Origin: Ilyobacter polytropus DSM 2926
GTDB taxonomy: Bacteria > Fusobacteriota > Fusobacteriia > Fusobacteriales > Fusobacteriaceae
DNA length: 64,000 nucleotides
Reading direction: 5' to 3'
Assembly: GCF_000165505.1 (NCBI RefSeq)
Contig: NC_014633.1
Coordinates: 434,001-498,000, forward strand
This document shows, piece by piece, positions 1,833 through 36,366 of this stretch. The stretch's first letter is position 1; every line of letters begins with the position of its first letter. Under the pieces are notes generated by a model. That model worked only from the letters and a program-made list of their open reading frames with translations. It made no database searches and had not been told where the DNA came from. A program made the position numbers and the translations under genes.

Positions 1833-4175
1833 TTATTTTCCGCGAATACTTCCAACCAATTGAAGTTTTTTCTTGATCGGTATTGTTATTTTAAAAGTTG
1901 TCCACTCTTTGTGCTTGCTTTTTACTTCTATTTCACCTTCCATCATATCTACTATCTCTTTTACGATTGTAAGGCCTAGGCCAAAGCCTTTTTTTTCTAT
2001 GTTTTCATTGAGATCAAGTTGATGGTATCTTTCAAAGATAGAGCTAAGTTTGTCTTGGGGAATTCCCATTCCGGTATCTGTTATACTTATAAAGAGTTTA
2101 TCATTATAACTGTCAAATTTGACTTCGACCTTTCCAAATTTGGTAAATTTAAAGGCGTTATTCACAAGATTTAAAATTACCTCTGTGAGCCTCACTTCAT
2201 CACCCATAAAATATTTTGGGACTTTTTCTGTTACATTCATGATAAAGAAGACATTCCGACCTTTATTTAGACCGTTACATATTCTCTCGATATTATCTAT
2301 CATATTTCTCAAATTGATTCTTCTATACTTGAGTTCCACTTTACCAGCCTCTAGTTTAGATAAGTCTAAAATGTTATCTATAAAAGTAACCAGGGTGTCT
2401 CCAGCCACTTGTATATTTTCAAGAAGCTTTTGTTTTTTTGGGTCATCTTCTCTTTTTAGAAGGAGTTTTGTGAATCCCATGACTGCAGTCAAGGGGGTTT
2501 TTAACTCGTGGCTTACATTTGCCAAGAAGGCAGTTTTTATATTCAGTGCATTTTCTAGTTCTCTTTTTGTTTCTAGCAGTTTTATTTCTGCTTTTTTTCT
2601 TTTATTAATCTCGTTCTTTAGAATCATGAGATAAGGTACTAATATCAGTATGGCTAATCCAAAGATTATCATCCATTGCCGGTAAGGCGGTTCCTCATTG
2701 TTTTCCTGGGCTTTAAATGTCCATTTTGAAAAAACTTCATCAGTATCTGTAATTTTTAAAATTTTATCCATGATATTTCTAAGAATTATGTCCTCTTTAA
2801 AAGTTGCAAATGAAAGAGAAAAATCTTTATCCAATATTCCGTAAAGTTTTAAGTTATTCATTCCTTTTTTATTTCTAGAGTTACTCATGAGAGTATAATC
2901 ATAGATAAAATAATCTATTTTGCCCGACTTCATCATTTTGTAAAGCTCTTCTAAATCGTCAGCAGATTTTATTTCAAAATTATCATTTATATTTAACGAT
3001 CGTAGGCTCGATTTTTCTTGTGTAATTCCTATTTTTTTTCCAGAGAGTTCATTCAAATTCCTAAAAAAATTGTGTCCTGAATGTTCAAGGCCAAAAATAC
3101 CTAAAGTACAACGATAGTACGGTCTTGTGGTTACAAGTTCCTTGTGTGTCAGATCCTTTGAAGCAACTGCAAAAAGATCGATGTCTAATTCTTTACCATA
3201 TTCTTCTAGAGACGTGCCTTTGTTTATATACTCAGGAATAAACGACACCTCTACACCGGCACCGTATTTAAACATATTTATATAGTCTGAAACTACTCCC
3301 TTTAAATTTCTTGTAGAATCAAAATACATAATAGGGGCTAAGTCCTTTAAAAATCCGCCGATCTTAATGGTACCCTTTTCTTCTAAATATCTTTTTTCTG
3401 CAGGAGTTATTTCTATAAGATTCCATAGAAATTTAGCTGAACTTTTTTCATAATTTTCTTTTTTTTCCAAGTGACCGTAGTTTCCTATAAATACATTTGA
3501 TATTCTTTTCAAGTTTTTATTTTTGGATTTCACACTGAATTTTTTTTCTAAATATAAATTTTTACTTAGAGTCAACTTTTCAAATATCTTCTGTTCAGGA
3601 AGTCTCATGTACATATCGTCTTTAAGAGAAAAAAACAAATCTAATTTTTTTTCTCTTAGAAGTGAGAATCCTTTTTCGATATCTTCTACTTTTATAACCT
3701 CTATATTCTCAGCTATTTTTTCAAGCTTACTTACAGGAGAGTGATCTCCTTTTAATACTCCTATTTTTTTGTTTTTTAAAAAGTTTTCTTCTTTATTTTC
3801 CTTTCCTTTAAGCCGATAAAATGCATAGGGAAACACATTTATAGTGGGACTCTCAGAATATTCTATAGTTGATTTCGGACTGTCTATTATTATATCTATA
3901 TCTTCTGTGCTTGTAATCTCGTCAAAACTGCCCTTTATTACAAAAGTTTTCATCCCTGTTTTTTCACTAAAAGTTTTTATAAGTTCTTCATTATATACAT
4001 CATTATAGCTTTTTCCCTGTGAGCTGTGTTGGATATATGCAAATGTTACTACTTTTTTATTTTTTATATATGCTATATCTTCTGGGCTCAGAGCATCATC
4101 TAAAAGGGAGAAAGCTTTAAAAAAAATCATAAGGAATAATAAAAGAAATTTCACACTAGAGTTTATTTTTTTCAA
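1833..4175 (-). CDS. Sensor histidine kinase with two periplasmic SBP-type domains
   Basis: I place the start at TTG 4175, because AAGGGGG (4184-4190) lies 8 nt upstream and the protein then opens with a clean signal sequence (KKINSSVKFLLLFLMIFF); an in-frame TTG at 4241 has no ribosome site. Two bacterial extracellular solute-binding (family 3) domains follow in tandem, the second beginning near GTIKIGGFLKDLAPIMY. Then come a transmembrane helix (WMIIFGLAILILVPYLMIL), a coiled coil, a HisKA box (ANVSHELKTPLTAV) and an HATPase_c domain ending in GFGLGLTIVKEIV. The architecture resembles BvgS/EvgS without PAS, receiver or HPt domains. It should phosphorylate a response regulator on binding a small solute or amino acid. 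No response regulator is adjacent, so its partner is unknown. Confidence 0.88.
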   Translation of the reverse strand: MKKINSSVKFLLLFLMIFFKAFSLLDDALSPEDIAYIKNKKVVTFAYIQHSSQGKSYNDVYNEELIKTFSEKTGMKTFVIKGSFDEITSTEDIDIIIDSPKSTIEYSESPTINVFPYAFYRLKGKENKEENFLKNKKIGVLKGDHSPVSKLEKIAENIEVIKVEDIEKGFSLLREKKLDLFFSLKDDMYMRLPEQKIFEKLTLSKNLYLEKKFSVKSKNKNLKRISNVFIGNYGHLEKKENYEKSSAKFLWNLIEITPAEKRYLEEKGTIKIGGFLKDLAPIMYFDSTRNLKGVVSDYINMFKYGAGVEVSFIPEYINKGTSLEEYGKELDIDLFAVASKDLTHKELVTTRPYYRCTLGIFGLEHSGHNFFRNLNELSGKKIGITQEKSSLRSLNINDNFEIKSADDLEELYKMMKSGKIDYFIYDYTLMSNSRNKKGMNNLKLYGILDKDFSLSFATFKEDIILRNIMDKILKITDTDEVFSKWTFKAQENNEEPPYRQWMIIFGLAILILVPYLMILKNEINKRKKAEIKLLETKRELENALNIKTAFLANVSHELKTPLTAVMGFTKLLLKREDDPKKQKLLENIQVAGDTLVTFIDNILDLSKLEAGKVELKYRRINLRNMIDNIERICNGLNKGRNVFFIMNVTEKVPKYFMGDEVRLTEVILNLVNNAFKFTKFGKVEVKFDSYNDKLFISITDTGMGIPQDKLSSIFERYHQLDLNENIEKKGFGLGLTIVKEIVDMMEGEIEVKSKHKEWTTFKITIPIKKKLQLVGSIRGK

Positions 4176-8754: not shown

Positions 8755-9582
8755 TTATTTTTTATTTGTGAATAAAGATGTAGTCATGGTTTCGAAATTT
8801 TCCTTTGTTTCTTTCAGTTTTGTATCTATTTTGGAAGTTTCATAAGAGATAGAATTTATTTGATTATTTATGGAAGATATTTTATCATCATCTACTTTAA
8901 ACTTTTTAAACAGTGTATCTGAAATTCTCAGAAAAAAATTCTTAACTGTACATTTAAAATCTGAGTCAATTGAAGAAGAGGTTTTTTCTATATTTTCTAA
9001 AAAAAGATTAAATTCTTCGGTGCTTTTTTTTAAGTTTTTGCTAGATGCCATACCAACATCCTGATAATAAGTAAAATCCGATATCTTAGATGAAATTTTA
9101 TACACAAAATTTGCAATATACTCTATTTCTTCGTACGGAAGTATTTTTATTTTGTCCACTGCATCGAGATACACATCTGAATCTATACCAAATTCTTTGG
9201 ATATATTTGTAAATTTTTCTTTATCGGGTTTTTCTGACAAGACCTGACCGCACAAAAAACATCCTATCAACTTGTCTCCCATCAGTATAGGGCTGGCAAA
9301 ATCAATCAAACCAGCGTGGCATTTGTACACTATTGGTTTCTTTAAAAGCATGGCCTTTGTTCCTCCGTATGAATCACAAAGCATACATTTTTTAAAACCT
9401 AACTCAGTTTTTCTGGTGTGATCGCCGCAAAATTCCGTAAAATTACTAGGTTTTGTTATGGGAAATCCGTTTACATCTGTTATGACACTGGCTATCTGAA
9501 ACTCTTTTGACAATCGGTCCTGCAATATCTGGAAAAACTCTATATCCAATGAATTTTTATTATTATCAACTAAATTATTCAT
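8755..9582 (-). CDS. Free-standing PocR ligand-binding-domain protein
   Basis: A 275-residue cytosolic protein. Residues about 13-170 match the PocR sensory domain: FQIASVITDVNGFPIT, FCGDHTRKTELGFKKC, a C-H-A-G-L segment and FLCGQVL, with cysteines at 52, 66, 69, 88, 108 and 111. The rest (about 180-275) is helical, heptad-like and charged, probably a coiled coil. There is no DNA-binding or kinase domain. In Salmonella the same domain is fused to AraC-type PocR, the activator of pdu and cob, and it has been predicted to sense simple hydrocarbon derivatives such as propanediol. Here it is the third gene of an operon with a kinase and a regulator (AAGGA, 8 nt before ATG, overlapping the end of the regulator gene), next to the pdu locus. 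I infer that it senses the diol and modulates the kinase. Confidence 0.85.
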   Translation of the reverse strand: MNNLVDNNKNSLDIEFFQILQDRLSKEFQIASVITDVNGFPITKPSNFTEFCGDHTRKTELGFKKCMLCDSYGGTKAMLLKKPIVYKCHAGLIDFASPILMGDKLIGCFLCGQVLSEKPDKEKFTNISKEFGIDSDVYLDAVDKIKILPYEEIEYIANFVYKISSKISDFTYYQDVGMASSKNLKKSTEEFNLFLENIEKTSSSIDSDFKCTVKNFFLRISDTLFKKFKVDDDKISSINNQINSISYETSKIDTKLKETKENFETMTTSLFTNKK

Positions 9583-9596
9583 AGTTTACATCCTTC

Positions 9597-10268
9597 TTAT
9601 TTCAAGATATATCCAAATCCTCTTTTGGATACTAATGCGTCATTCAATAACGGAATTTTTTTTCTGAGTCTTTTTAAACACTGATCAACAGCCTTGTTGC
9701 TTATTTCTAGGTTATCATCCCACACATGATCTAGTATTTTTTCTCTGTTCAGTAAAATACCCTTATTAACTATGAAAAATGTAAGTAGTTTAAATTCATT
9801 TTTTGAAAGAGTTACATTGTCGGTATCATAAACAACATTTTTATTTTTCAAATTGACATTTATTTTTTCGTATGTTAACTCCTGTTTTTTTTCTGGAACT
9901 CTTTTAATAAATTTTTTTATTCTTATTAAAAGTTCCTTTTGATTAAAAGGTTTTTTTATGTAGTCATCACAACCTAGCTCGAGATTTTTATTTATACTAC
10001 TCTGAGAAGTTTCTGCAGTGATAGCCAAAATAAAAGGGTTGTTATATAAGGTAGGATTTTTTCTCAGTTTTTCACAAACATAACTTCCGTTTCCATCTGG
10101 CAGGTTAAGATCTAAAAGGATTATATTTGGTTTTTTCAAAGTTATAATCTTCATTCCCTCTTTCACTGAACTTGCCTCATAAATTTCAATATTATTTTCA
10201 TTGCGTAGTATCACTTTCAAAAGTTCTACGGTTTCTTCAGAGTCTTCTATAATTAACACTTTTACCAT
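9597..10268 (-). CDS. OmpR/PhoB-family response regulator, likely controller of the microcompartment locus
   Basis: A 223-residue protein with a receiver domain (1-120; acidic pocket E-D near 8-9, phospho-acceptor Asp53 in ILLDLNLPDG, conserved K in the DYIKKPF motif) and a C-terminal winged-helix DNA-binding domain (about 130-223, with LSKNEFKLLTFF and a final KRGFGYIL). Its ATG overlaps the kinase stop codon (TAATG), so the two are translationally coupled. Regulators of this class bind direct repeats spaced by one helical turn. Exactly such repeats (GACA, 11 bp) sit at the three microcompartment promoters at 12.2, 16.1 and 17.3 kb. The link is inference from proximity and geometry. Confidence 0.92.
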   Translation of the reverse strand: MVKVLIIEDSEETVELLKVILRNENNIEIYEASSVKEGMKIITLKKPNIILLDLNLPDGNGSYVCEKLRKNPTLYNNPFILAITAETSQSSINKNLELGCDDYIKKPFNQKELLIRIKKFIKRVPEKKQELTYEKINVNLKNKNVVYDTDNVTLSKNEFKLLTFFIVNKGILLNREKILDHVWDDNLEISNKAVDQCLKRLRKKIPLLNDALVSKRGFGYILK

Positions 10269-12160
10269 TAATTATCCTCCATTTCATTATTTATAAAATA
10301 TTCTAAATGACTAAAAAATATAGGCTCATTAATTGGTTTGGTTATATACCCGTCAAATCCAAGAGGGAGGTATTTTTCTTTGTCGCCCACTATTGCCTGA
10401 GCTGTCAGAGCAAGGGTAGGTGTTTTTTTTAATTCAAAATTTGATTTTATATGCTTTAAAGCCTGGACTCCGTCCATTACCGGCATTTGAATATCTAAGA
10501 AAATAATATCAAATTTATTTTGCTGTAATTCTTTTAAAGCCAACAAGCCATTCTCTACACAAGTTAGTCTTACTGCATCTGATTCTAATAGAGCTCTCAT
10601 AAAATCTCTATTTTCTTCCACATCTTCAGCCATAAGAATACTTAATTTTTTATTTTTCATCTTCAGATATTCTTTAAAAATACTATCATATTCTAAAGTC
10701 CGATTCATATTTTCCAGTTCTGAGATGCAGGAGAGGATTTTTTTAAAATTAACTTTATCTTTTTTTAGTTCGCTTGATATATCCTTTGATTTTCCATAGA
10801 TAAATGCCATATTTAAATTTCCGTACGTGCCCAAATTCTTGTGGTTTAATTTTCTGATTTCTTCTATATTTTTGTTTTCACAGGCTTCTTTTAGTTTTTT
10901 TAATCTAATAGGGAATTTCAAAAGACTTTTTAAAATAATAGGTTTTACTTTTGGATTTGTCTTGTTCAACAATTTTCTTAAATTAAAGGCAAAATTTTCA
11001 TCTGAGTTTTTGTAAATTTCAATTGGAATACTTACATTAAAAGTGGTTCCGATACCCAATTTACTCTCGACTTTTATATCTCCCTTTAGAATCTCAATTA
11101 ATCTTTTAGTGATGCTAAGTCCTAGACCTGCACCTGCAGACTGTTTGTTTATCTGTCCGAAACTTTCAAAAATATAATTGATATTTTTATCAGAGATTCC
11201 TATGCCGCTGTCATAGACATCAAAGCATAACAAAGAGTCTCTTATTTCTACGGTACACAGAACAGATCCCTTTTTAGTATATTTAATGGCGTTATGAACC
11301 AGATTTTTTACAACTTCATATAACTTCATTTTGTCAGAATATATTATTATGTCATTTTGAGGTAACTCAATTTGAAATTGTATATTTTTTTCCTCAGCTT
11401 TTTCACAGTGTTCATTGTAAATTTCTTTGAAAAATTTTTTGATGCCAAAAGGCTCAAAATTCAGTTCGACTGTTCCGGCTTCTATTTTTGAAAAGTCCAA
11501 AAGTTCATTTGTAAAGTTTAATAACTTAACTCCGGAGTTGTGGATAGTTTCGAGTTTTTCTTTTGTATAATCTGATAATTCTGATTTTTTTAACATACGA
11601 GAGTATCCGATTATAGGAGTCAGAGGTGTCCTCATTTCGTGACTTATTTTTGCTAGAAATTCATTTTTAGACCGGTTTGCAGCTTCAGCATGTTCCTTTG
11701 CAGATTTTAACTGGGTAGTCCTTTTCTCAACCATCTGTTCTAGATTTTTGTTCAAAAGGGTTAGTTTTTCACTGAGTTCTTCAGCTTTTTCTTTTTGTTT
11801 TTTTATCTCACTTTCTTTAACCAGGATATCAATAATATCTATTTTAATGGATGAAAAGATTTGGTGAAAACATCCTTCCATGTTTAAAAGCTCTTTTCTT
11901 AAGTTAGAAATAAACTTGTTATTTATTAGAGATATTACCTTATCTAATTTTTCAAGACTGCTGTAGACGGTTATTAACATAAATTTAGAAATGAAATTTG
12001 ACATGATGAAAAAAACAGAAACAGCTGCTATTGTCTTTATAAAAAAATGATCTTTAAGTATTGAAATACCGATGCTTTCTTTTAAAAAAATATAAGCTGC
12101 TGTTAAGTACAAGGTAAATATAATAGTGTTGGAAAGAGCTATTTTTCTATGTATTTTCAT
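10268..12160 (-). CDS. Hybrid sensor histidine kinase
   Basis: A 630-residue protein. Two transmembrane helices (about 8-26 and 41-66) are separated by only some 15 residues, so there is no extracytoplasmic sensor domain. A coiled coil (about 110-160), HisKA (His174 in KISHEMRTP), HATPase_c (with GAGLGLSITKRL) and a C-terminal receiver domain (about 503-620, Asp556 in FLDIQMP) follow. It is predicted to phosphorylate the downstream OmpR-type regulator, perhaps by phosphorelay through its own receiver. Because it lacks a sensor domain, its input probably comes from the cytoplasm; the PocR-domain protein encoded two genes downstream is the natural candidate. The start is supported by AAGGGGAA 6 nt upstream. 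It is transcribed divergently from pduS. Confidence 0.9.
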   Translation of the reverse strand: MKIHRKIALSNTIIFTLYLTAAYIFLKESIGISILKDHFFIKTIAAVSVFFIMSNFISKFMLITVYSSLEKLDKVISLINNKFISNLRKELLNMEGCFHQIFSSIKIDIIDILVKESEIKKQKEKAEELSEKLTLLNKNLEQMVEKRTTQLKSAKEHAEAANRSKNEFLAKISHEMRTPLTPIIGYSRMLKKSELSDYTKEKLETIHNSGVKLLNFTNELLDFSKIEAGTVELNFEPFGIKKFFKEIYNEHCEKAEEKNIQFQIELPQNDIIIYSDKMKLYEVVKNLVHNAIKYTKKGSVLCTVEIRDSLLCFDVYDSGIGISDKNINYIFESFGQINKQSAGAGLGLSITKRLIEILKGDIKVESKLGIGTTFNVSIPIEIYKNSDENFAFNLRKLLNKTNPKVKPIILKSLLKFPIRLKKLKEACENKNIEEIRKLNHKNLGTYGNLNMAFIYGKSKDISSELKKDKVNFKKILSCISELENMNRTLEYDSIFKEYLKMKNKKLSILMAEDVEENRDFMRALLESDAVRLTCVENGLLALKELQQNKFDIIFLDIQMPVMDGVQALKHIKSNFELKKTPTLALTAQAIVGDKEKYLPLGFDGYITKPINEPIFFSHLEYFINNEMEDN

Positions 12161-12528
12161 AATTGTTCCCCTTATCTATATTCTTAGAATGTTACAGAAA
12201 AACATAATAATTTTTTTAAGTGTGTGTAAAAATAACACTAAACGACATTATTATGACACTTCTATCTAATATTATATCATTATTTCTAGAATATCAATAT
12301 TATTTCAATTATAATGACAAGAATGAAATACTTTTTGAGATAAAAGATTGAGATACTAGGGCGTAGAGAAATAAAGAATGGATGAAAAAATATTTTAAAT
12401 AGTTTTAATTAAATTAATGTTTTATATATAGATTGATATTATTGTTACTTAAATTTGATTTTTGGAGACAACAGACTGTCATATTTAAAGTAGTGTTTAA
12501 AGTTAAAAAAAGTTGAAGGAGGGAAGGG
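12161..12528. other. divergent intergenic region between kinase operon and pduS
   Basis: This 368-bp AT-rich gap holds the start regions of two divergent units. It contains one GACA repeat pair with its -10 hexamer (12244-12275) reading toward pduS, which leaves an untranslated leader of about 245 nt before the pduS ATG. I see no clear terminator or riboswitch in that leader and no open reading frame with a ribosome site. A matching repeat pair reading toward the kinase gene was not found. Confidence 0.7.
12244..12275 (+). promoter_or_regulatory. GACA direct-repeat operator and -10 box upstream of pduS
   Basis: GACA occurs at 12244-12247 and 12255-12258, exactly 11 bp apart. A -10 hexamer TATTAT starts at 12270, 15 nt after the G of the second repeat. 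No good -35 hexamer is present, as expected of an activator-dependent promoter. The same geometry recurs upstream of pduQ and pduB. Confidence 0.7.
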
Positions 12529-13872
12529 ATGGATATTGTTCAAAAAATACGTGAAGCCGGAATTGTAGGTGCTGGAGGTGCCGGTTTTCCCACCCACATA
12601 AAATTTTCTGTGGATAAGGTAGATTATTTACTGGTAAATGGAGCTGAGTGCGAACCCCTTTTACAAATAGATAAGTACCTCATGAGGGAAAAAGCCAGTG
12701 AAATAATTAAAATTTTGGAGCAATTAGGTGATAGAATCCAGGCAAAAGAGATACATATAGCTCTTAAGGGAAAGTATAAATCTGAAATTACTGAGCTGGA
12801 AAATGCAATAAAAAATTTAAATTCAAGGGTGAAGATATTTAAAATGGGTACTTATTATCCTGCTGGTGACGAGCAGCAGATAGTTTTTGAGGTAACAGGG
12901 CGTACAGTTCCAGAAGCAGGAATACCTCTTGATGTTGGGGTTATAGTTACCAATGTAGGAACCCTTGTAAATATATATGAGGCTGTGGACTCTGACAAAC
13001 CTGTGGTTGATAAATGTCTAAGCATACATGGGGAAGTAAAAAAACCTCTGATTATAAAGACGCCTATTGGAATGACCTTTGAAAAATGTATAGAGGCTGC
13101 CGGAGGTGCAACTATTGACAATTATAAGATAATTGTCGGGGGCCCTATGATGGGAAAAGTTATAGTTAAAGAAAGTTTGAAAAAAGAGGTAGTTACAAAA
13201 ACAACAGGGGCACTTATTGTGGTACCGGAAGATCACTATATGATCTACAGAAATGGGAAAACCGTAAAGCATATTGTAAATGAAGCCAAGTCAGCTTGTA
13301 TCCAGTGCAGGATGTGTACTGATCTCTGTCCTAGATATCTTATTGGTCACAAGCTCAGACCTCACAGAATCATGAGAAATGTGAGTATGCTGGAAAATGA
13401 CAGCGAGATATTGAAAGAGGCCATGCTCTGCTGTGAGTGTGGTATCTGCGAGCTATTTGCATGCCCTATGCAGATTTCTCCAAGACTTGTAAATATACAC
13501 TTAAAAAATATATTTAGAAAAAATAATGTCAGGTTTGAAAAAAGTACAAGGGAACTCGCGGCAGATTCTATGAGGGAGTATAGAAAAGTACCTACCGACA
13601 GGCTTATAAGCAGGATAGGTATGAGTAAATATACTGATTTTTCTGAAAAAAAAGCTGTGGTTTTAGAGTCAGATGAAGTTTCTATTCCTCTGAAACAGCA
13701 TATAGGAGCACCTGCTAAACCAGTGGTGTCTGTAGGGGACCATGTAGAGTGCGGTCAGGTTATAGGTGAGGTAAAGGAAGGTTTAGGAGCAAATATCCAT
13801 TCTAGTATAGAGGGGATCGTGATTGGTATAGGGGATTCTGTAATTATAAAAAACAAGGGGGCGAATAAATAA
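12529..13872 (+). CDS. pduS: PduS cobalamin reductase (RnfC-like Fe-S flavoprotein)
   Basis: A 447-residue protein matching PduS and the RnfC/Nqo1 fold. The N-terminus has the glycine-rich GAGGAGFPTH (14-23) and NGAECEPLL segments of the flavin/NADH-binding module. Two [4Fe-4S] motifs follow: C257-x2-C260-x2-C263-x3-C267-P and C301-x2-C304-x2-C307-x4-C312-P. A C-terminal biotinyl-like domain has HIGAPAKPVVSVGD. PduS reduces cob(III)/cob(II)alamin to cob(I)alamin so that PduO can adenosylate it, recycling the cofactor of diol dehydratase in the compartment. The SD is GGAGGG. It is the first gene of the pduS-pduT-kinase unit, and its stop overlaps the pduT start (TAATG). Confidence 0.92.
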   Translation: MDIVQKIREAGIVGAGGAGFPTHIKFSVDKVDYLLVNGAECEPLLQIDKYLMREKASEIIKILEQLGDRIQAKEIHIALKGKYKSEITELENAIKNLNSRVKIFKMGTYYPAGDEQQIVFEVTGRTVPEAGIPLDVGVIVTNVGTLVNIYEAVDSDKPVVDKCLSIHGEVKKPLIIKTPIGMTFEKCIEAAGGATIDNYKIIVGGPMMGKVIVKESLKKEVVTKTTGALIVVPEDHYMIYRNGKTVKHIVNEAKSACIQCRMCTDLCPRYLIGHKLRPHRIMRNVSMLENDSEILKEAMLCCECGICELFACPMQISPRLVNIHLKNIFRKNNVRFEKSTRELAADSMREYRKVPTDRLISRIGMSKYTDFSEKKAVVLESDEVSIPLKQHIGAPAKPVVSVGDHVECGQVIGEVKEGLGANIHSSIEGIVIGIGDSVIIKNKGANK

Positions 13873-14417
13873 TGGATACAGTGGGAATTATAGAACTAAA
13901 CAGTATAGCTCGTGGAATAGAGGTAACTGATAGTTTATTGAAATCTGCAGAAGTAACTCTTTTGAAAGCCGGTACAATATGCCCCGGAAAATATATGGTT
14001 ATTGTAAAAGGATATGTAGGGGCTGTAAAATCAGCTATACAAACAGGGGTAGAAATTGGTGCGGAAAATGTAGTGGAAAGCAAGGTGATAACCAGACTAG
14101 ACCCGAGGGTTATAATGGCAGTAAATGCTGCTAGTGAAATAAAAAAAATGAGGTCCCTGGGAGTAATTGAATTTTTTGATGTCACTTCTGCTCTTTATGC
14201 TGCAGACTCAGCAATAAAATCCGCAGATGTTGAGATTATAGAGATAAGGATGGGGTATGCTATAGGAGGTAAATCTTATGTTACTCTGACCGGTGACCTG
14301 AGTGCTGTAAAAACTGCTGTAGAAGTGGGTTCTAAAGCTGGGGAAGACAATTGTATGCTTGTCAATAAAGCTGTCATTGCTTCGCCTCGAAAGGAGTTAA
14401 TTGAAAGCCTATTATAA
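13872..14417 (+). CDS. pduT: PduT tandem-BMC shell protein with Fe-S pore cysteine
   Basis: A 181-residue protein made of two BMC domains (about 4-85 and 95-175), with the shell motifs GIIELNSIARGIEVTDSLLK and SLGVIEFFDVTSALYAADS. In characterised PduT a cysteine near residue 38 of the first domain holds a [4Fe-4S] cluster at the pore of the trimer. Here the equivalent is Cys37, in the I-C-P-G-K-Y loop. It should be an electron conduit through the shell, consistent with its coupling to the reductase PduS. Overlap with pduS ensures co-translation. Confidence 0.93.
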   Translation: MDTVGIIELNSIARGIEVTDSLLKSAEVTLLKAGTICPGKYMVIVKGYVGAVKSAIQTGVEIGAENVVESKVITRLDPRVIMAVNAASEIKKMRSLGVIEFFDVTSALYAADSAIKSADVEIIEIRMGYAIGGKSYVTLTGDLSAVKTAVEVGSKAGEDNCMLVNKAVIASPRKELIESLL

Positions 14418-14479
14418 GTGGGAGTTTTCTGTAAATATCCCAAATAGCTGTCTCAGTAATTACTCGAGTAAAAGGAGGA

Positions 14480-15724
14480 GTGGAATTGGGATTGATTTTG
14501 GATAATGAAAATATTGAGTTATATGTAAAAAAACGGACGAAATTATTTGATCAACACTCAGAGTTAACAATTGTAAATATTGCTGATCAAGATGATGAAG
14601 AGACTGATGGATTTGTAAACTTTCTCTTTCGTATTATAGATGACGCAGGGAAATCTGTTATATTAAAGCAGGCTCGACCTTATATAAGAGTATTTGATGA
14701 GGCATCACTAGATGTATCACGAAATAAGCTAGAATATGAAACAATGAGAATCCGTAGCAATATTTGTCATAATTACGTTCCAGAGATTTTTCATATAGAT
14801 TATGAAAATAACGCCTTTATTATGGAAGACTGTAAAGATTATAGACCTTTAAGATTTGAGATGTCCAAGATGAAACGTTTCGATGATTTGGCAAAACAAA
14901 TTTCAGAGTATATGTCAAAGTCAAATTTTTATACTTCAGAATACTTTTTATCATCAGAGGATCACAAAGGACTTCAGGCAGCCTTTGTTAACATTGAAAT
15001 GAGAAATATTATAGAAAATGCTGCCTTTATTAAAGATTATGTGAATGTAGGTACCCGGCGTGATGATATTCATGAGACTATCGTTGAGTGGATATGGCAA
15101 CAAGAAATTGTTCAGCTCGAGACATTAAAAAGCCGTGACATATTTATGAAAAAAGGACAATGTCTGGTACATGGTGATCTGCACACATCAAATGTTCTTG
15201 TTTCAGAAGATAACATAAAGATTATAGACATGGAGTATACTTTTATGGGGCCTTTTTCAGCAGATATGGGGTATTTTCTGGCTAATTTTATATTTGCTTA
15301 CAGTGCTTTAATGATGAGGGAAGACTGCAGTACTAGTGAAAGATCTGATTATGCCAAGTATATCTTGGAAACTATTGAGGAAACAGTCGATAATTACTAT
15401 AAAAATTTTAGGCTGTGTTGGGAAAAGGATGCTAAGGAGATCTATCGAAAAGTCCCGGGATATCTTGAAAATATTGAAAAAGATTTTTTATTCGAATCCA
15501 TGGGGATAATGGCTTCAGCTGCTATTTGCAGAGTAACTGGAGATTTTGAACTGACTGACTTAAATTGCATTGATGACCCATTAAAGAAAAACAAGGCACG
15601 CAGCTTGGTTATGCTAATATGTCATCAGGTTTTTAAAGAAAGAGAGAAATATGGTGGCATAAAAGATTTGATTAAAACCATTGTTGATACGAGCAAGGTA
15701 TTTATATCAATTAACGGATTCTAA
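14480..15724 (+). CDS. Methylthioribose-kinase-like phosphotransferase in the Pdu regulon
   Basis: A 414-residue APH/choline-kinase-fold enzyme. The catalytic loop is V-H-G-D-L-H-T-S-N-V and the metal-binding DFG-equivalent is I-I-D-M-E-Y, followed by GPFSADMGYFLANF; together these resemble 5-methylthioribose kinase (MtnK). A late C-I-D-D-P-L-K-K-N-K-A segment also fits that family. Roles to consider: phosphorylating 5-deoxyribose or methylthioribose released from 5'-deoxyadenosine (a by-product when AdoCbl is damaged), or an unrelated small-molecule kinase. Arginine is written mostly with CGN codons, whereas flanking genes use AGA/AGG almost only, which suggests recent acquisition. It sits 62 bp after pduT (SD AAAGGAGG, TTG start) and before a terminator. 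Confidence 0.78.
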   Translation: MELGLILDNENIELYVKKRTKLFDQHSELTIVNIADQDDEETDGFVNFLFRIIDDAGKSVILKQARPYIRVFDEASLDVSRNKLEYETMRIRSNICHNYVPEIFHIDYENNAFIMEDCKDYRPLRFEMSKMKRFDDLAKQISEYMSKSNFYTSEYFLSSEDHKGLQAAFVNIEMRNIIENAAFIKDYVNVGTRRDDIHETIVEWIWQQEIVQLETLKSRDIFMKKGQCLVHGDLHTSNVLVSEDNIKIIDMEYTFMGPFSADMGYFLANFIFAYSALMMREDCSTSERSDYAKYILETIEETVDNYYKNFRLCWEKDAKEIYRKVPGYLENIEKDFLFESMGIMASAAICRVTGDFELTDLNCIDDPLKKNKARSLVMLICHQVFKEREKYGGIKDLIKTIVDTSKVFISINGF

Positions 15725-15901
15725 ATTAGTTATAAAATATGCAGATGCAGGATTATTTGATACTGGATTTTATGAGGTTTATTATAGTTTTTTTCTTCAA
15801 AATATTCTAAAATAATCATTTGGAAGATTTCTAAAAATGAAAAATTAACAATGACAAGAGATGATTTGATAAAATTCAAGGTAAATAATTTAAGATGTCA
15901 T

Positions 15902-15941
15902 AAAAAAGCTGTAGCCAAAAGTATTGGTCTACAGCTTTTTT
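15902..15941 (+). terminator. rho-independent terminator after the pduS-pduT-kinase unit
   Basis: AAAAAAGCTGTAG (15902-15914) pairs with CTACAGCTTTTTT (15929-15941); two further C-G pairs close the loop after a bulged T. The right arm ends in six Ts. It lies about 180 bp after the kinase stop codon. Confidence 0.8.
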
Positions 15942-16059
15942 ATTGGAGATAAAGAGATTATTTTATTTGCTTCTTTTAAAATTCCAAAACATTTGTAAGT
16001 ATGAATTCTTAATGAAAACCAATAATATAGAACAGTTTGAATAAAAAGTAACAAAAAAT

Positions 16060-16091
16060 GACATTATCACGACATTTTTATCTAGTATTGT
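16060..16091 (+). promoter_or_regulatory. GACA direct-repeat operator and -10 box upstream of pduQ
   Basis: GACA occurs at 16060-16063 and 16071-16074 (11 bp apart). The -10 hexamer TATTGT starts at 16086, again 15 nt after the second repeat. The leader to the pduQ ATG is about 50 nt. Confidence 0.7.
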
Positions 16092-16144
16092 ATTTGTATA
16101 ACTAATGAATAAAAGTTTTTATTTTGATTTTAAGGGGGATTGAT

Positions 16145-17251
16145 ATGGGAATATTTCATGTCAAAACTGAGATATACTCCGGTATAGGGGTTAGAGAAGT
16201 TTTAGAAATGGATAATCTGAAAAAGGTAATTATTATAACTGACCCTGTGATGGTTAAGCTAGGATTGGTTGAAATTGTAGAAAAGACATTGGAAGAGCTG
16301 AAAGTGAATTATGATATTTTTGATGAGGTAGAAGTCGATCCGACTCTGGAATCTGTAAAAAAAGGGTTGGAAAAGGTAATGAAGTTCGCTCCGGATAAAA
16401 TGATAGCCTTGGGAGGCGGTTCAGCCATAGATTCTGCCAAATCAATATATTATTTTATGAAAAAAAGCGGAAAAGAGATACCTATAATAGCTATTCCAAC
16501 AACAAGTGGGACTGGTTCTGAAGTGACATCTTATGCAGTTATAACAGACAAAAAGAAAAAGGTGAAAATACCAATCAAAGATGAAGATATGATACCGGAA
16601 AAGGCAATACTTGACCCTGTATTTACTAAAACTCTGCCAAGAGTTGTTGTGGCAGACGGAGGGATAGATGCTCTCACACATGCCATAGAATCTTACACAT
16701 GCAAAAGTGCAAATTTTTATACCCAAACATTTGCATTGACTGCGATTGTTGGGATTTTTAAAAATATTTTGAAGGTATATAACAACATTGAGGATGAAGA
16801 TGCAAGAGTTGAAATGGGAAAAGCTTCATGTATGGCCGGGATAGCCTTTGATAGATCAGGATTGGGAATAAATCACAGTATAGCTCATGTAATCGGAGGT
16901 AGGTTTCATAAATCTCACGGAAGATCCAACGGAGTCATTCTTCCATACGTAATAAAATTTAATTCAAGTGATAAAGAGACAGCAAAAAGATATTGGCAGA
17001 TTTCTAAAAGGCTGGGTTTGCCAAGTGAGACAAAAGAACAGGGAGCAGAAAGTCTCGCTGTAGCTGTAGAGGTTTTAAATAAATGCCTTGGAATTCCAAG
17101 TTGTTTGAAAGAAATGGAGATCGGCTGGGAGGCCTATAAAAAATTGATTCCTGAAATGGCTAAAACTGCCATGGAAGATATCTGCACCGATGGAAATATT
17201 AAAAAAGTTTCTCAGGGGGATATGGAGGAAATATTCCAAAAGATTTATTAA
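16145..17251 (+). CDS. pduQ: Iron-containing alcohol dehydrogenase (PduQ-type, 1-propanol/1,3-propanediol dehydrogenase)
   Basis: The start is ATG 16145: AAGGGGG lies 6 nt upstream, whereas an in-frame TTG at 16124 has no ribosome site. The 368-residue product is a group III iron alcohol dehydrogenase. It has the NAD-binding GGGSAID (90-96), the PTTSGTGSEVT segment (118-128) and metal ligands Asp175 and His179 in IDALTHA, plus histidines in HSIAHVIGGRFHKSHG. It reduces propionaldehyde (or 3-hydroxypropionaldehyde) to the alcohol, regenerating NAD+ for PduP. It forms its own transcription unit with a dedicated repeat-pair promoter. Sequence alone does not separate the PduQ and DhaT roles. Confidence 0.88.
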   Translation: MGIFHVKTEIYSGIGVREVLEMDNLKKVIIITDPVMVKLGLVEIVEKTLEELKVNYDIFDEVEVDPTLESVKKGLEKVMKFAPDKMIALGGGSAIDSAKSIYYFMKKSGKEIPIIAIPTTSGTGSEVTSYAVITDKKKKVKIPIKDEDMIPEKAILDPVFTKTLPRVVVADGGIDALTHAIESYTCKSANFYTQTFALTAIVGIFKNILKVYNNIEDEDARVEMGKASCMAGIAFDRSGLGINHSIAHVIGGRFHKSHGRSNGVILPYVIKFNSSDKETAKRYWQISKRLGLPSETKEQGAESLAVAVEVLNKCLGIPSCLKEMEIGWEAYKKLIPEMAKTAMEDICTDGNIKKVSQGDMEEIFQKIY

Positions 17252-17293
17252 TGTTTTAAAAAAGAATCTGTTGTATTGAAATAGTCTTAAAAC

Positions 17294-17325
17294 GACATTC
17301 AAATGACATTTTGAACTTTTATAAT
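17294..17325 (+). promoter_or_regulatory. GACA direct-repeat operator and -10 box of the main pdu operon
   Basis: GACA occurs at 17294-17297 and 17305-17308 (11 bp apart). A consensus -10 TATAAT starts at 17320, 15 nt after the second repeat. Transcription is predicted to start about 40 nt before the pduB ATG. This is the strongest -10 of the three copies, as fits the largest operon. Confidence 0.75.
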
Positions 17326-17373: not shown

Positions 17374-18156
17374 ATGCAAGAAAATCTGGTAGAAAAAATG
17401 ATGGCTGAAGTAATGGAAAAATTGGGAGGCGAACAGAAAAAAGATGAACCTGTTGTAAATACAGAGTGTCGTCTGACAGAATTTGTAGGAACTACAACTT
17501 TAGGTGACACAATAGGCCTTGTGATCGCCAATGTAGACCCTGCATTGCACGAAGCCATGGGAATAGACAAAAAATATCGTTCGATTGGAATTATGGGGGC
17601 AAGAACTGGGGCAGGACCACATATTATGGCTGCAGATGAAGCTGTAAAAGCCACCAACACAGAGGTTATATCTATAGAACTTCCTAGAGATACAAAGGGA
17701 GGAGCAGGACATGGTTCTTTGATTTTATTTGGTGCTGAAGATGTGTCTGATGCCAAAAGAGCGGTAGAAGTTGCTCTTAATGCGGTTAATGAAAAATTTG
17801 GAGACGTATATGCAAATGATGCAGGGCATATAGAACTTCAGTATACAGCTAGAGCTTCTTATGCTTGTAATAAAGCATTTAATGCACCTCTAGGAAAATC
17901 TTTTGGATTAATAGTAGGAGCTCCGGCGGCTATAGGGGTAGTTATAGCAGATACAGCCTTAAAGGCAGCCAATGTAGAAGTACTTGCTTATTCATCTCCT
18001 TCTAATGGAACTAGTCTTTCAAATGAGTCTATTTTAGCAATTTGCGGAGATTCTGGAGCAGTTAGACAAGCTGTTTTAACAGCAAAAGAGGTTGGAGTTA
18101 AGCTTCTAGAGACAATGGGAGGATCTGCACCTTCAGTAACTACACCATATATTTAA
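17374..18156 (+). CDS. pduB: PduB trimeric shell protein
   Basis: A 260-residue tandem-BMC protein of the PduB/EtuB class, with the motifs TTLGDTIGLVIANVDP, SIGIMGARTGAGPHIMAADEA and GLIVGAPAAIGVVIADTALKAANVE. The N-terminal helix QENLVEKMMAEVMEKLGG resembles encapsulation peptides; in Salmonella this extension ties the enzyme core to the shell. The internal start that gives PduB' in Salmonella (around residue 38) has no counterpart here, since no ATG, GTG or TTG lies in that stretch. An AGGAGG SD precedes it. It is the first gene of the operon; a pduA gene is not placed ahead of it. Confidence 0.95.
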   Translation: MQENLVEKMMAEVMEKLGGEQKKDEPVVNTECRLTEFVGTTTLGDTIGLVIANVDPALHEAMGIDKKYRSIGIMGARTGAGPHIMAADEAVKATNTEVISIELPRDTKGGAGHGSLILFGAEDVSDAKRAVEVALNAVNEKFGDVYANDAGHIELQYTARASYACNKAFNAPLGKSFGLIVGAPAAIGVVIADTALKAANVEVLAYSSPSNGTSLSNESILAICGDSGAVRQAVLTAKEVGVKLLETMGGSAPSVTTPYI

Positions 18157-31494: not shown

Positions 31495-31737
31495 GATCTA
31501 TAAAAAGTTTAAATTTTTTTTTAAATTTTAAAAACCTCACTACCAACTACAAAGTCCGATAATTTATAAGTATTATATTTTTTTTAAAATAACAAAAACA
31601 ATAAAATATAATAATAGAGATATAAAAAATAAATATTGATACACTGATTTTTTTATGTAAAACTGATTAAAATATTAAATAGTTGTTGAAAAATACTACA
31701 AAAAGATTTATAATGAACAGGTAATATTATATAAAAC

Positions 31738-31901
31738 GATTAAGGTTTTGGAACAATTCCAAATTAAAAGGGAAGAAGAGTGAAAATCTCTCGCGGTCCC
31801 GCCACTGTAAAGCTGACTAAGGTATGTTTGCCACTGGAAAATATTTTCTGGGAAGGGTGTACCTTATAGGATGAAGCTGAGCCAGGAGACCTGCCTTGAT
31901 C
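31738..31901 (+). promoter_or_regulatory. cobalamin riboswitch aptamer
   Basis: The closing helix P1 is formed by GATTAAGG (31738-31745) and CCTTGATC (31894-31901). The B12 box is at 31874-31895, with the core GCCAGGAGACCTGCC. The upstream conserved parts GGGAAG and CGGTCCCGCCACTGTAA (about 31770-31809) are also present. Such elements bind adenosylcobalamin or related cobalamins and switch off expression of B12 synthesis or uptake genes. The terminator that follows shows that control is at transcription. Confidence 0.95.
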
Positions 31902-31986
31902 TTAGAGATGTACTAGCCTGCGAGGACAGGGAGGCATAGCTTGATTTGAGGCAGAAAAACATTCTGATCAGACTGAGATATTCCTG

Positions 31987-35800: not shown

Positions 35801-36366
35801 GACATATAAGAGACAGGGAATTCATAAGAGGCAGTGTGCCTATGACTAAAGAGGAAGTGAGAGCTGTATCAGTAGCAAAACTTCAGTTAGAACCTCATCA
35901 CATTCTTGTAGATGTAGGGGCGGGAACTGGTTCTGTAGGTATAGAGGCTGCCGGTTATCTTTCTCAGGGAAGCGTCTACGGTATAGAGATAAACCCTGAC
36001 GGAATAGATATAATCAAAAAAAATATCGAAAAATTTCAAATTGGCAATTACAACTTGATAGAGGGGCTTGCTCCTGAAAATATTCCGAAGATAAAGTATC
36101 ATAGGATGTTTGTGGGAGGAAGCAAGGGAAATCTGGACACCATTGTAAATCATTTTATGGAACATTCTGCAGAGGATGGAGTTATAGTGATAAACGCTAT
36201 AGTGCTAGAAACCCTAACAAAGGCAATGGACACATTGAAGGCCAATAGATTTACAGATATAGAGGTAGTATCTATGACTGTTGCTAGAAACAGAAAAGTA
36301 GGAACAATGAACATGATGATGGGCGAAAACCCCATATATATAATAACTGCTAAAAGAGGAGAGTAA
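35797..36366 (+). CDS. cbiT: Cobalt-precorrin-6B C15-methyltransferase (decarboxylating)
   Basis: A 189-residue class I SAM methyltransferase with I-R-D-R-E-F, VDVGAGTGSVGIEAAG and YGIEINPDGIDIIKKN, and a late RMFVGGSKGN. It methylates C-15 and removes the acetate carboxyl at C-12. The start is GTG 35797 inside the end of cbiE, with GGTGAGGA upstream, showing translational coupling. Confidence 0.94.
   Translation: MRHIRDREFIRGSVPMTKEEVRAVSVAKLQLEPHHILVDVGAGTGSVGIEAAGYLSQGSVYGIEINPDGIDIIKKNIEKFQIGNYNLIEGLAPENIPKIKYHRMFVGGSKGNLDTIVNHFMEHSAEDGVIVINAIVLETLTKAMDTLKANRFTDIEVVSMTVARNRKVGTMNMMMGENPIYIITAKRGE

Follow-up and report, generated by a model that had tools for sequence, protein, structure and literature searches.

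In Salmonella, PocR is a one-component AraC-type activator of both the pdu and the cob genes. Two-component control of pdu loci is also already known (PMC4207490, PMC7593272). PDU1D loci encode a histidine kinase that includes a PocR domain (Axen et al. 2014, PMC4207490). In these loci and in the 1,3-propanediol operon of Clostridium butyricum (cited in PMC4207490), a PocR sensory domain and a two-component system accompany a diol/glycerol dehydratase locus that has no AraC-type PocR. In Acetobacterium woodii, Awo_c25920 bound the regions upstream of pduA and of the kinase gene in EMSA, and the pdu cluster is induced by 1,2-propanediol (PMC7593272). Awo_c25920 is a 43 kDa protein, too large for the 223-residue OmpR type described below, and no short binding site is defined in the passages of that paper that were consulted.

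Ilyobacter polytropus ferments glycerol to 1,3-propanediol and 3-hydroxypropionate (PMC3035301). The window analysed here, a stretch of 64 000 nt from chromosome II of this organism, contains an organelle gene cluster for the breakdown of small alcohols, for example propanediol or glycerol. The cluster shares with the PDU1D and C. butyricum loci the combination of PocR sensory domain and two-component system and the lack of an AraC-type PocR, with the A. woodii cluster the two-component control, and with Salmonella the association of pdu control with a PocR sensory domain. It differs from these systems in having a PocR domain that is split off as a separate protein, a HisKA hybrid kinase with an HPt-like domain, an OmpR-type regulator and a defined site. 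No earlier description of this arrangement was found in the literature searched, which comprised papers without their supplementary datasets and took in few subscription journals.

Three pdu units and their promoter sites

The pdu genes form three units on the forward strand. The first begins with pduS (12529–13872; Complex1_51K, SLBB and RnfC_N domains), continues with the gene for a pduT-type shell protein with two BMC domains (13872–14417) and ends with a gene for an APH-fold kinase (14480–15724). It is closed by an intrinsic-terminator-like hairpin at 15900–15943 (−22.8 kcal/mol, z −7.6). By domain and curated-family match the APH-fold kinase resembles methylthioribose kinase (268 bits, cut-off 275), and it is kept in two relatives, G041 and G056. 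The iron alcohol dehydrogenase gene pduQ (16145–17251) is a single-gene unit; its ATG has AGGGGG ahead of it, and the start given in the ORF list is a TTG at 16124. The main unit runs from pduB (17374–18156) to 30628 and includes pduCDE, pduGH, pduL and the genes for shell proteins, adenosyltransferase and aldehyde dehydrogenase, with a glpF/pduF-type gene last.

Ahead of each unit, on the forward strand, lie two 11 bp units and a −10 hexamer. These are found at 12242–12275 for pduS (units 12242–12252 and 12253–12263, TATTAT at 12270–12275), 16058–16091 for pduQ (units 16058–16068 and 16069–16079, TATTGT at 16086–16091) and 17292–17325 for pduB (units 17292–17302 and 17303–17313, TATAAT at 17320–17325). 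An earlier note on this DNA had reported GACA pairs at 12244/12255, 16060/16071 and 17294/17305, 11 bp apart, each followed by a −10 that begins 15 nt after the second G. All of these positions and spacings proved exact to the base, and the claim that every unit of the locus has such a site ahead of it is correct for pdu. The remark that none has a good −35 also held, as the best hexamers match at 2–4 of 6 positions at spacers of 15–19, equal to random sequence. At the pduB promoter, TTCAAA is found at a spacer of 16 bp and is retained, among the relatives, only in the closest three genomes. The adjacent cob/cbi genes are preceded by a cobalamin riboswitch (31726–31912) and the cob genes have no pdu-type site upstream. 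B12 synthesis is controlled separately from the pdu regulon, which is a difference from the Salmonella system.

The genome searched comprised 3,132,314 bases, including contigs of 2,046,464 and 961,624, and genome-scale statistics were obtained from pattern searches with reversed-pattern controls. By itself, GACA-N7-GACA is too weak as evidence: four copies are present in the window versus about one expected, and the fourth, at 35801, falls within coding sequence of the cob/cbi cluster. The longer pattern AYGACAYT-N3-AYGACAYT is matched perfectly at three places in the 3.13 Mb genome, and these are exactly the pduS, pduQ and pduB sites. The number expected from base composition is 0.05, or 0.0005 with TATNNT added at the observed distance. 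The next best match is a single site with one mismatch, also on chromosome II. The genome scan with two copies of AYGACAYTNNN that the earlier note had called for gave perfect matches at the three pdu promoters only. Relatives served as an independent test, since the three sites themselves had supplied the pattern.

Distribution and conservation of the motif

Two queries were run against 96 Fusobacteriales genomes: the regulator encoded beside the pdu genes, and the motif together with its −10, for which two mismatches at most were allowed. Close orthologs of the regulator (57–92 % identity) were found in G041, G056, G023, G024, G025, G027, G029 and G015, and the motif, which the earlier note had proposed should be sought in relatives with the same operon, is present in all eight. 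The nine regulator-bearing genomes, counting I. polytropus, yielded 24 motif matches versus 4 with the reversed control, and the other 87 genomes 15 versus 36. The pduB site has orthologous sites in 8/8 relatives, the pduQ site in seven (all but G015) and the pduS site in G041 and G056. The motif is therefore found before pduS, pduQ and pduB in three genomes including I. polytropus, before pduQ and pduB in five, and before pduB in G015. Judged from these searches, the motif at the pdu promoters is not due to chance.

The curated PduB model scores above its cut-off in 14 genomes, namely the nine and G031, G064, G086, G087 and G089. GACA-N7-GACA is absent around the PduB-family gene of the latter five (10–12 kb searched in G031, G064 and G089, and shorter stretches in G086 and G087). 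Hence, among loci with a full PduB-family gene, the motif is present in 9/9 with an ortholog of the regulator and in 0/5 without one (Fisher p 5e-4 as if the genomes were independent; the nine are kin and do not represent nine independent events). Of the five loci, the one in G031 is of the glycyl-radical type rather than the B12 pdu type. In G031 (L246:9419-11558), the glycyl-radical microcompartment locus is followed by genes for a histidine kinase with a PocR domain and a response regulator of the AraC type, which is the better-known arrangement. The motif-search matches of G086, G087 and G089 sit on contigs other than the one with PduB. A two-mismatch match, ATAACATCRAAATGACATTATCC, is common to these three genomes of one genus (L075, L076 and L077).

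In the sets of pduQ and pduB promoters, the half-site cores are 81–97 % identical and the −10 hexamers 80–96 %, versus 46–51 % for the flanks (45 bases upstream and 30 downstream). When GACA-N7-GACA was sought without requiring a −10, TANNNT was found at a distance of exactly 15 in 20/20 pdu-locus sites, some of which have additional TANNNT at other offsets. In none of 25 sites does a −35 candidate rise above the level of random sequence. Because there is no −35 beyond chance and the spacing to the −10 is fixed, the half-sites, at about −40 to −19, appear to replace the −35. Such a placement is the class-II layout of PhoB-type activators, and PhoB binds TGTCA cores just upstream of the −10. 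As in OmpR/PhoB operators, among them the Pho box and the ArcA box, the pdu half-sites are head-to-tail direct repeats 11 bp apart. However, TGACA runs with transcription in the pdu sites and in the opposite direction in the Pho box, the genes are different, and no phosphate link was found. For ArcA, repeats with 11 bp centre-to-centre spacing are documented (PMC3798270).

The regulatory operon and the proposed binding protein

An operon that runs opposite to pduS encodes, in an order kept in 9/9 genomes, a kinase, a regulator and a PocR-domain protein, all on the reverse strand of the window. The regulator (9597–10268; 223 residues) is of the OmpR/PhoB type, with receiver (Response_reg) and winged-helix (Trans_reg_C) domains both above cut-off, and is the proposed DNA-binding protein. 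Its recognition helix is strongly conserved across the nine genomes, and the closest solved structures are RegX3 and mycobacterial PhoP. The best curated family is PhoB, but the score of 152 bits, against a cut-off of 296, does not make it a PhoB equivalog.

The hybrid histidine kinase (10268–12160) has a hydrophobic N-terminus, HisKA and HATPase domains, an HPt-like stretch (10646–11002) and a receiver. The sequence of the N-terminus includes no sizeable outside loop, and the kinase lacks a large outside sensor domain. In the stretch between HATPase and receiver, H440, G444 and N448 (HxxxGxxxN) are invariant. The model of this stretch has a pLDDT of 89.5, and HPt structures are its best-ranked matches (Z 11–12, which is within chance reach of helical bundles). 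Foldseek gave a probability of 1.00 but a weak E of 0.09, and a Pfam search of the fragment returned no HPt domain match. The modelled domain suggests a phosphorelay.

The third gene (8755–9582), overlooked in the earlier note, encodes a free-standing PocR-domain protein of 275 residues that is a candidate cytosolic ligand sensor. PocR activators combine a PocR domain and an AraC HTH in one protein, but this protein has no HTH match and consists of a PocR domain alone; nor does the kinase contain a PocR match, as it does in PDU1D. A site located 54–84 bp ahead of the kinase start codon, and facing away from it, is present in the eight genomes that were inspected; this is compatible with autoregulation of the kinase operon.

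We consider it highly probable that the three sites serve the adjacent PhoB-like regulator as operators and that this regulator would act as a class-II activator, be fed by a phosphorelay and depend on the PocR protein as receptor. A phosphorylated dimer would bind the two AYGACAYTNNN half-sites in place of a −35 and recruit RNA polymerase to the −10 held 15 nt after the G of the second half-site. Phosphate would pass from the hybrid kinase through its own receiver and HPt-like domain to the regulator. The PocR-domain protein, a putative receptor for a diol or glycerol, would switch the kinase; this input is proposed from gene order.

The earlier note had suggested that the adjacent OmpR-type regulator drives all pdu units, replacing an AraC-type PocR. 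The comparison of genomes strongly supports the first part, with motif and regulator together at 9/9 loci and both missing at 5/5, although it is co-occurrence that ties the sites to this regulator in particular, because other OmpR paralogs of the genome may read similar repeats. The second part needs modification. The locus does lack an AraC-type PocR, but it keeps the PocR domain as a separate protein, and a protein with PocR domain and AraC HTH is encoded on chromosome I.

This AraC-type PocR, which adjoins a second dehydratase and dhaT, could itself bind the pdu sites, since an AraC DNA-binding domain, too, makes contact with two major grooves that are separated by one turn. However, its own neighbourhood, the dehydratase and dhaT included, is without the motif, and PocR matches of AraC-type size were not found in the motif-bearing G015, G023, G024, G025 and G027 while being present in many motif-free genomes. 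As binder it is disfavoured, and we regard it as extremely improbable. Another OmpR-family paralog is barely more credible and still very improbable. One such paralog is the phosphate regulator PhoB, given the curated family that the adjacent regulator matches best, at half its cut-off, and a box that is an 11 bp repeat of TGTCA, which is TGACA on the opposite strand. Yet there is no such repeat between the genes of the I. polytropus pst operon, and the motif is missing where the pdu regulator is missing, despite many OmpR-family paralogs in those genomes.

A different question is whether the regulator, once bound, activates or represses. The site overlaps the promoter, so a dimer that covers the −35 region might block polymerase until released. 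Repression of this kind is improbable, since the 25 sites have no −35 above chance and the exact spacing to the −10 would be required for contact with polymerase but not for blocking it. Activation by the adjacent regulator is the reading that we prefer.

Sites beyond the pdu locus

The earlier note had equated the whole regulon with the three units; in relatives it appears wider and takes in unrelated genes whose function suits the pathway. In G056, a site lies 46 bp ahead of a gene for an iron alcohol dehydrogenase, after which come a BMC shell gene and pduV. In G041 a site precedes the ortholog (85 % identical) of this dehydrogenase gene. The one-mismatch fourth site in I. polytropus (L021:2896-4150; G000:C2:360395 onward) is separated by an IS3-like element from a GAF/HD-GYP-type gene, and in the G041 counterpart (L179:3925, reverse strand) the site is directly ahead of the HD-GYP-type ortholog. 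The product of the HD-GYP-type gene is predicted to be a c-di-GMP hydrolase. The site before glpP-glpF-glpK in G029 is a tentative regulon member; it is absent in G025 and G027, and the G024 contig ends short of the upstream region. Equally tentative is a site with two mismatches before another alcohol dehydrogenase gene in G015, a single case. G027:C1:116865, G023:C13:21234 and G015:C1:801410 look like chance matches and were not retained as regulon sites.

Other repeats were seen in I. polytropus. Near 3268–3300 of L024 (G000:C2:381767), between two divergent operons, head-to-tail 11 bp units (GTGACATATAA twice, then GTGACATA) probably serve a different OmpR-family regulator as operator. GACA-N7-GACA pairs before a gene for a Spy/CpxP-like periplasmic protein (L025; G000:C1:805087, reverse strand) and near a bacterioferritin-like gene (L023; G000:C2:568001, reverse strand) are candidate sites of other OmpR-type regulators.

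Previously, two-component genes had merely been noted at some pdu loci in Fusobacteriota. For the control of microcompartments in this phylum, the present analysis offers a specific DNA site together with a named regulator and the regulon predicted for it. It also opens to testing the question of whether a kinase can have its sensor in a PocR domain on a separate protein. The promoter is compact and strongly conserved and could serve as a diol-inducible part. A broader reading is possible but tentative, namely that the PocR protein is the cytosolic receptor for an otherwise sensorless kinase, and that the three-gene phosphorelay switches, besides pdu, separate genes for alcohol dehydrogenase and shell proteins and, in relatives of Ilyobacter, one for a c-di-GMP hydrolase. 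If this is true, diol availability would also set the level of a second messenger.
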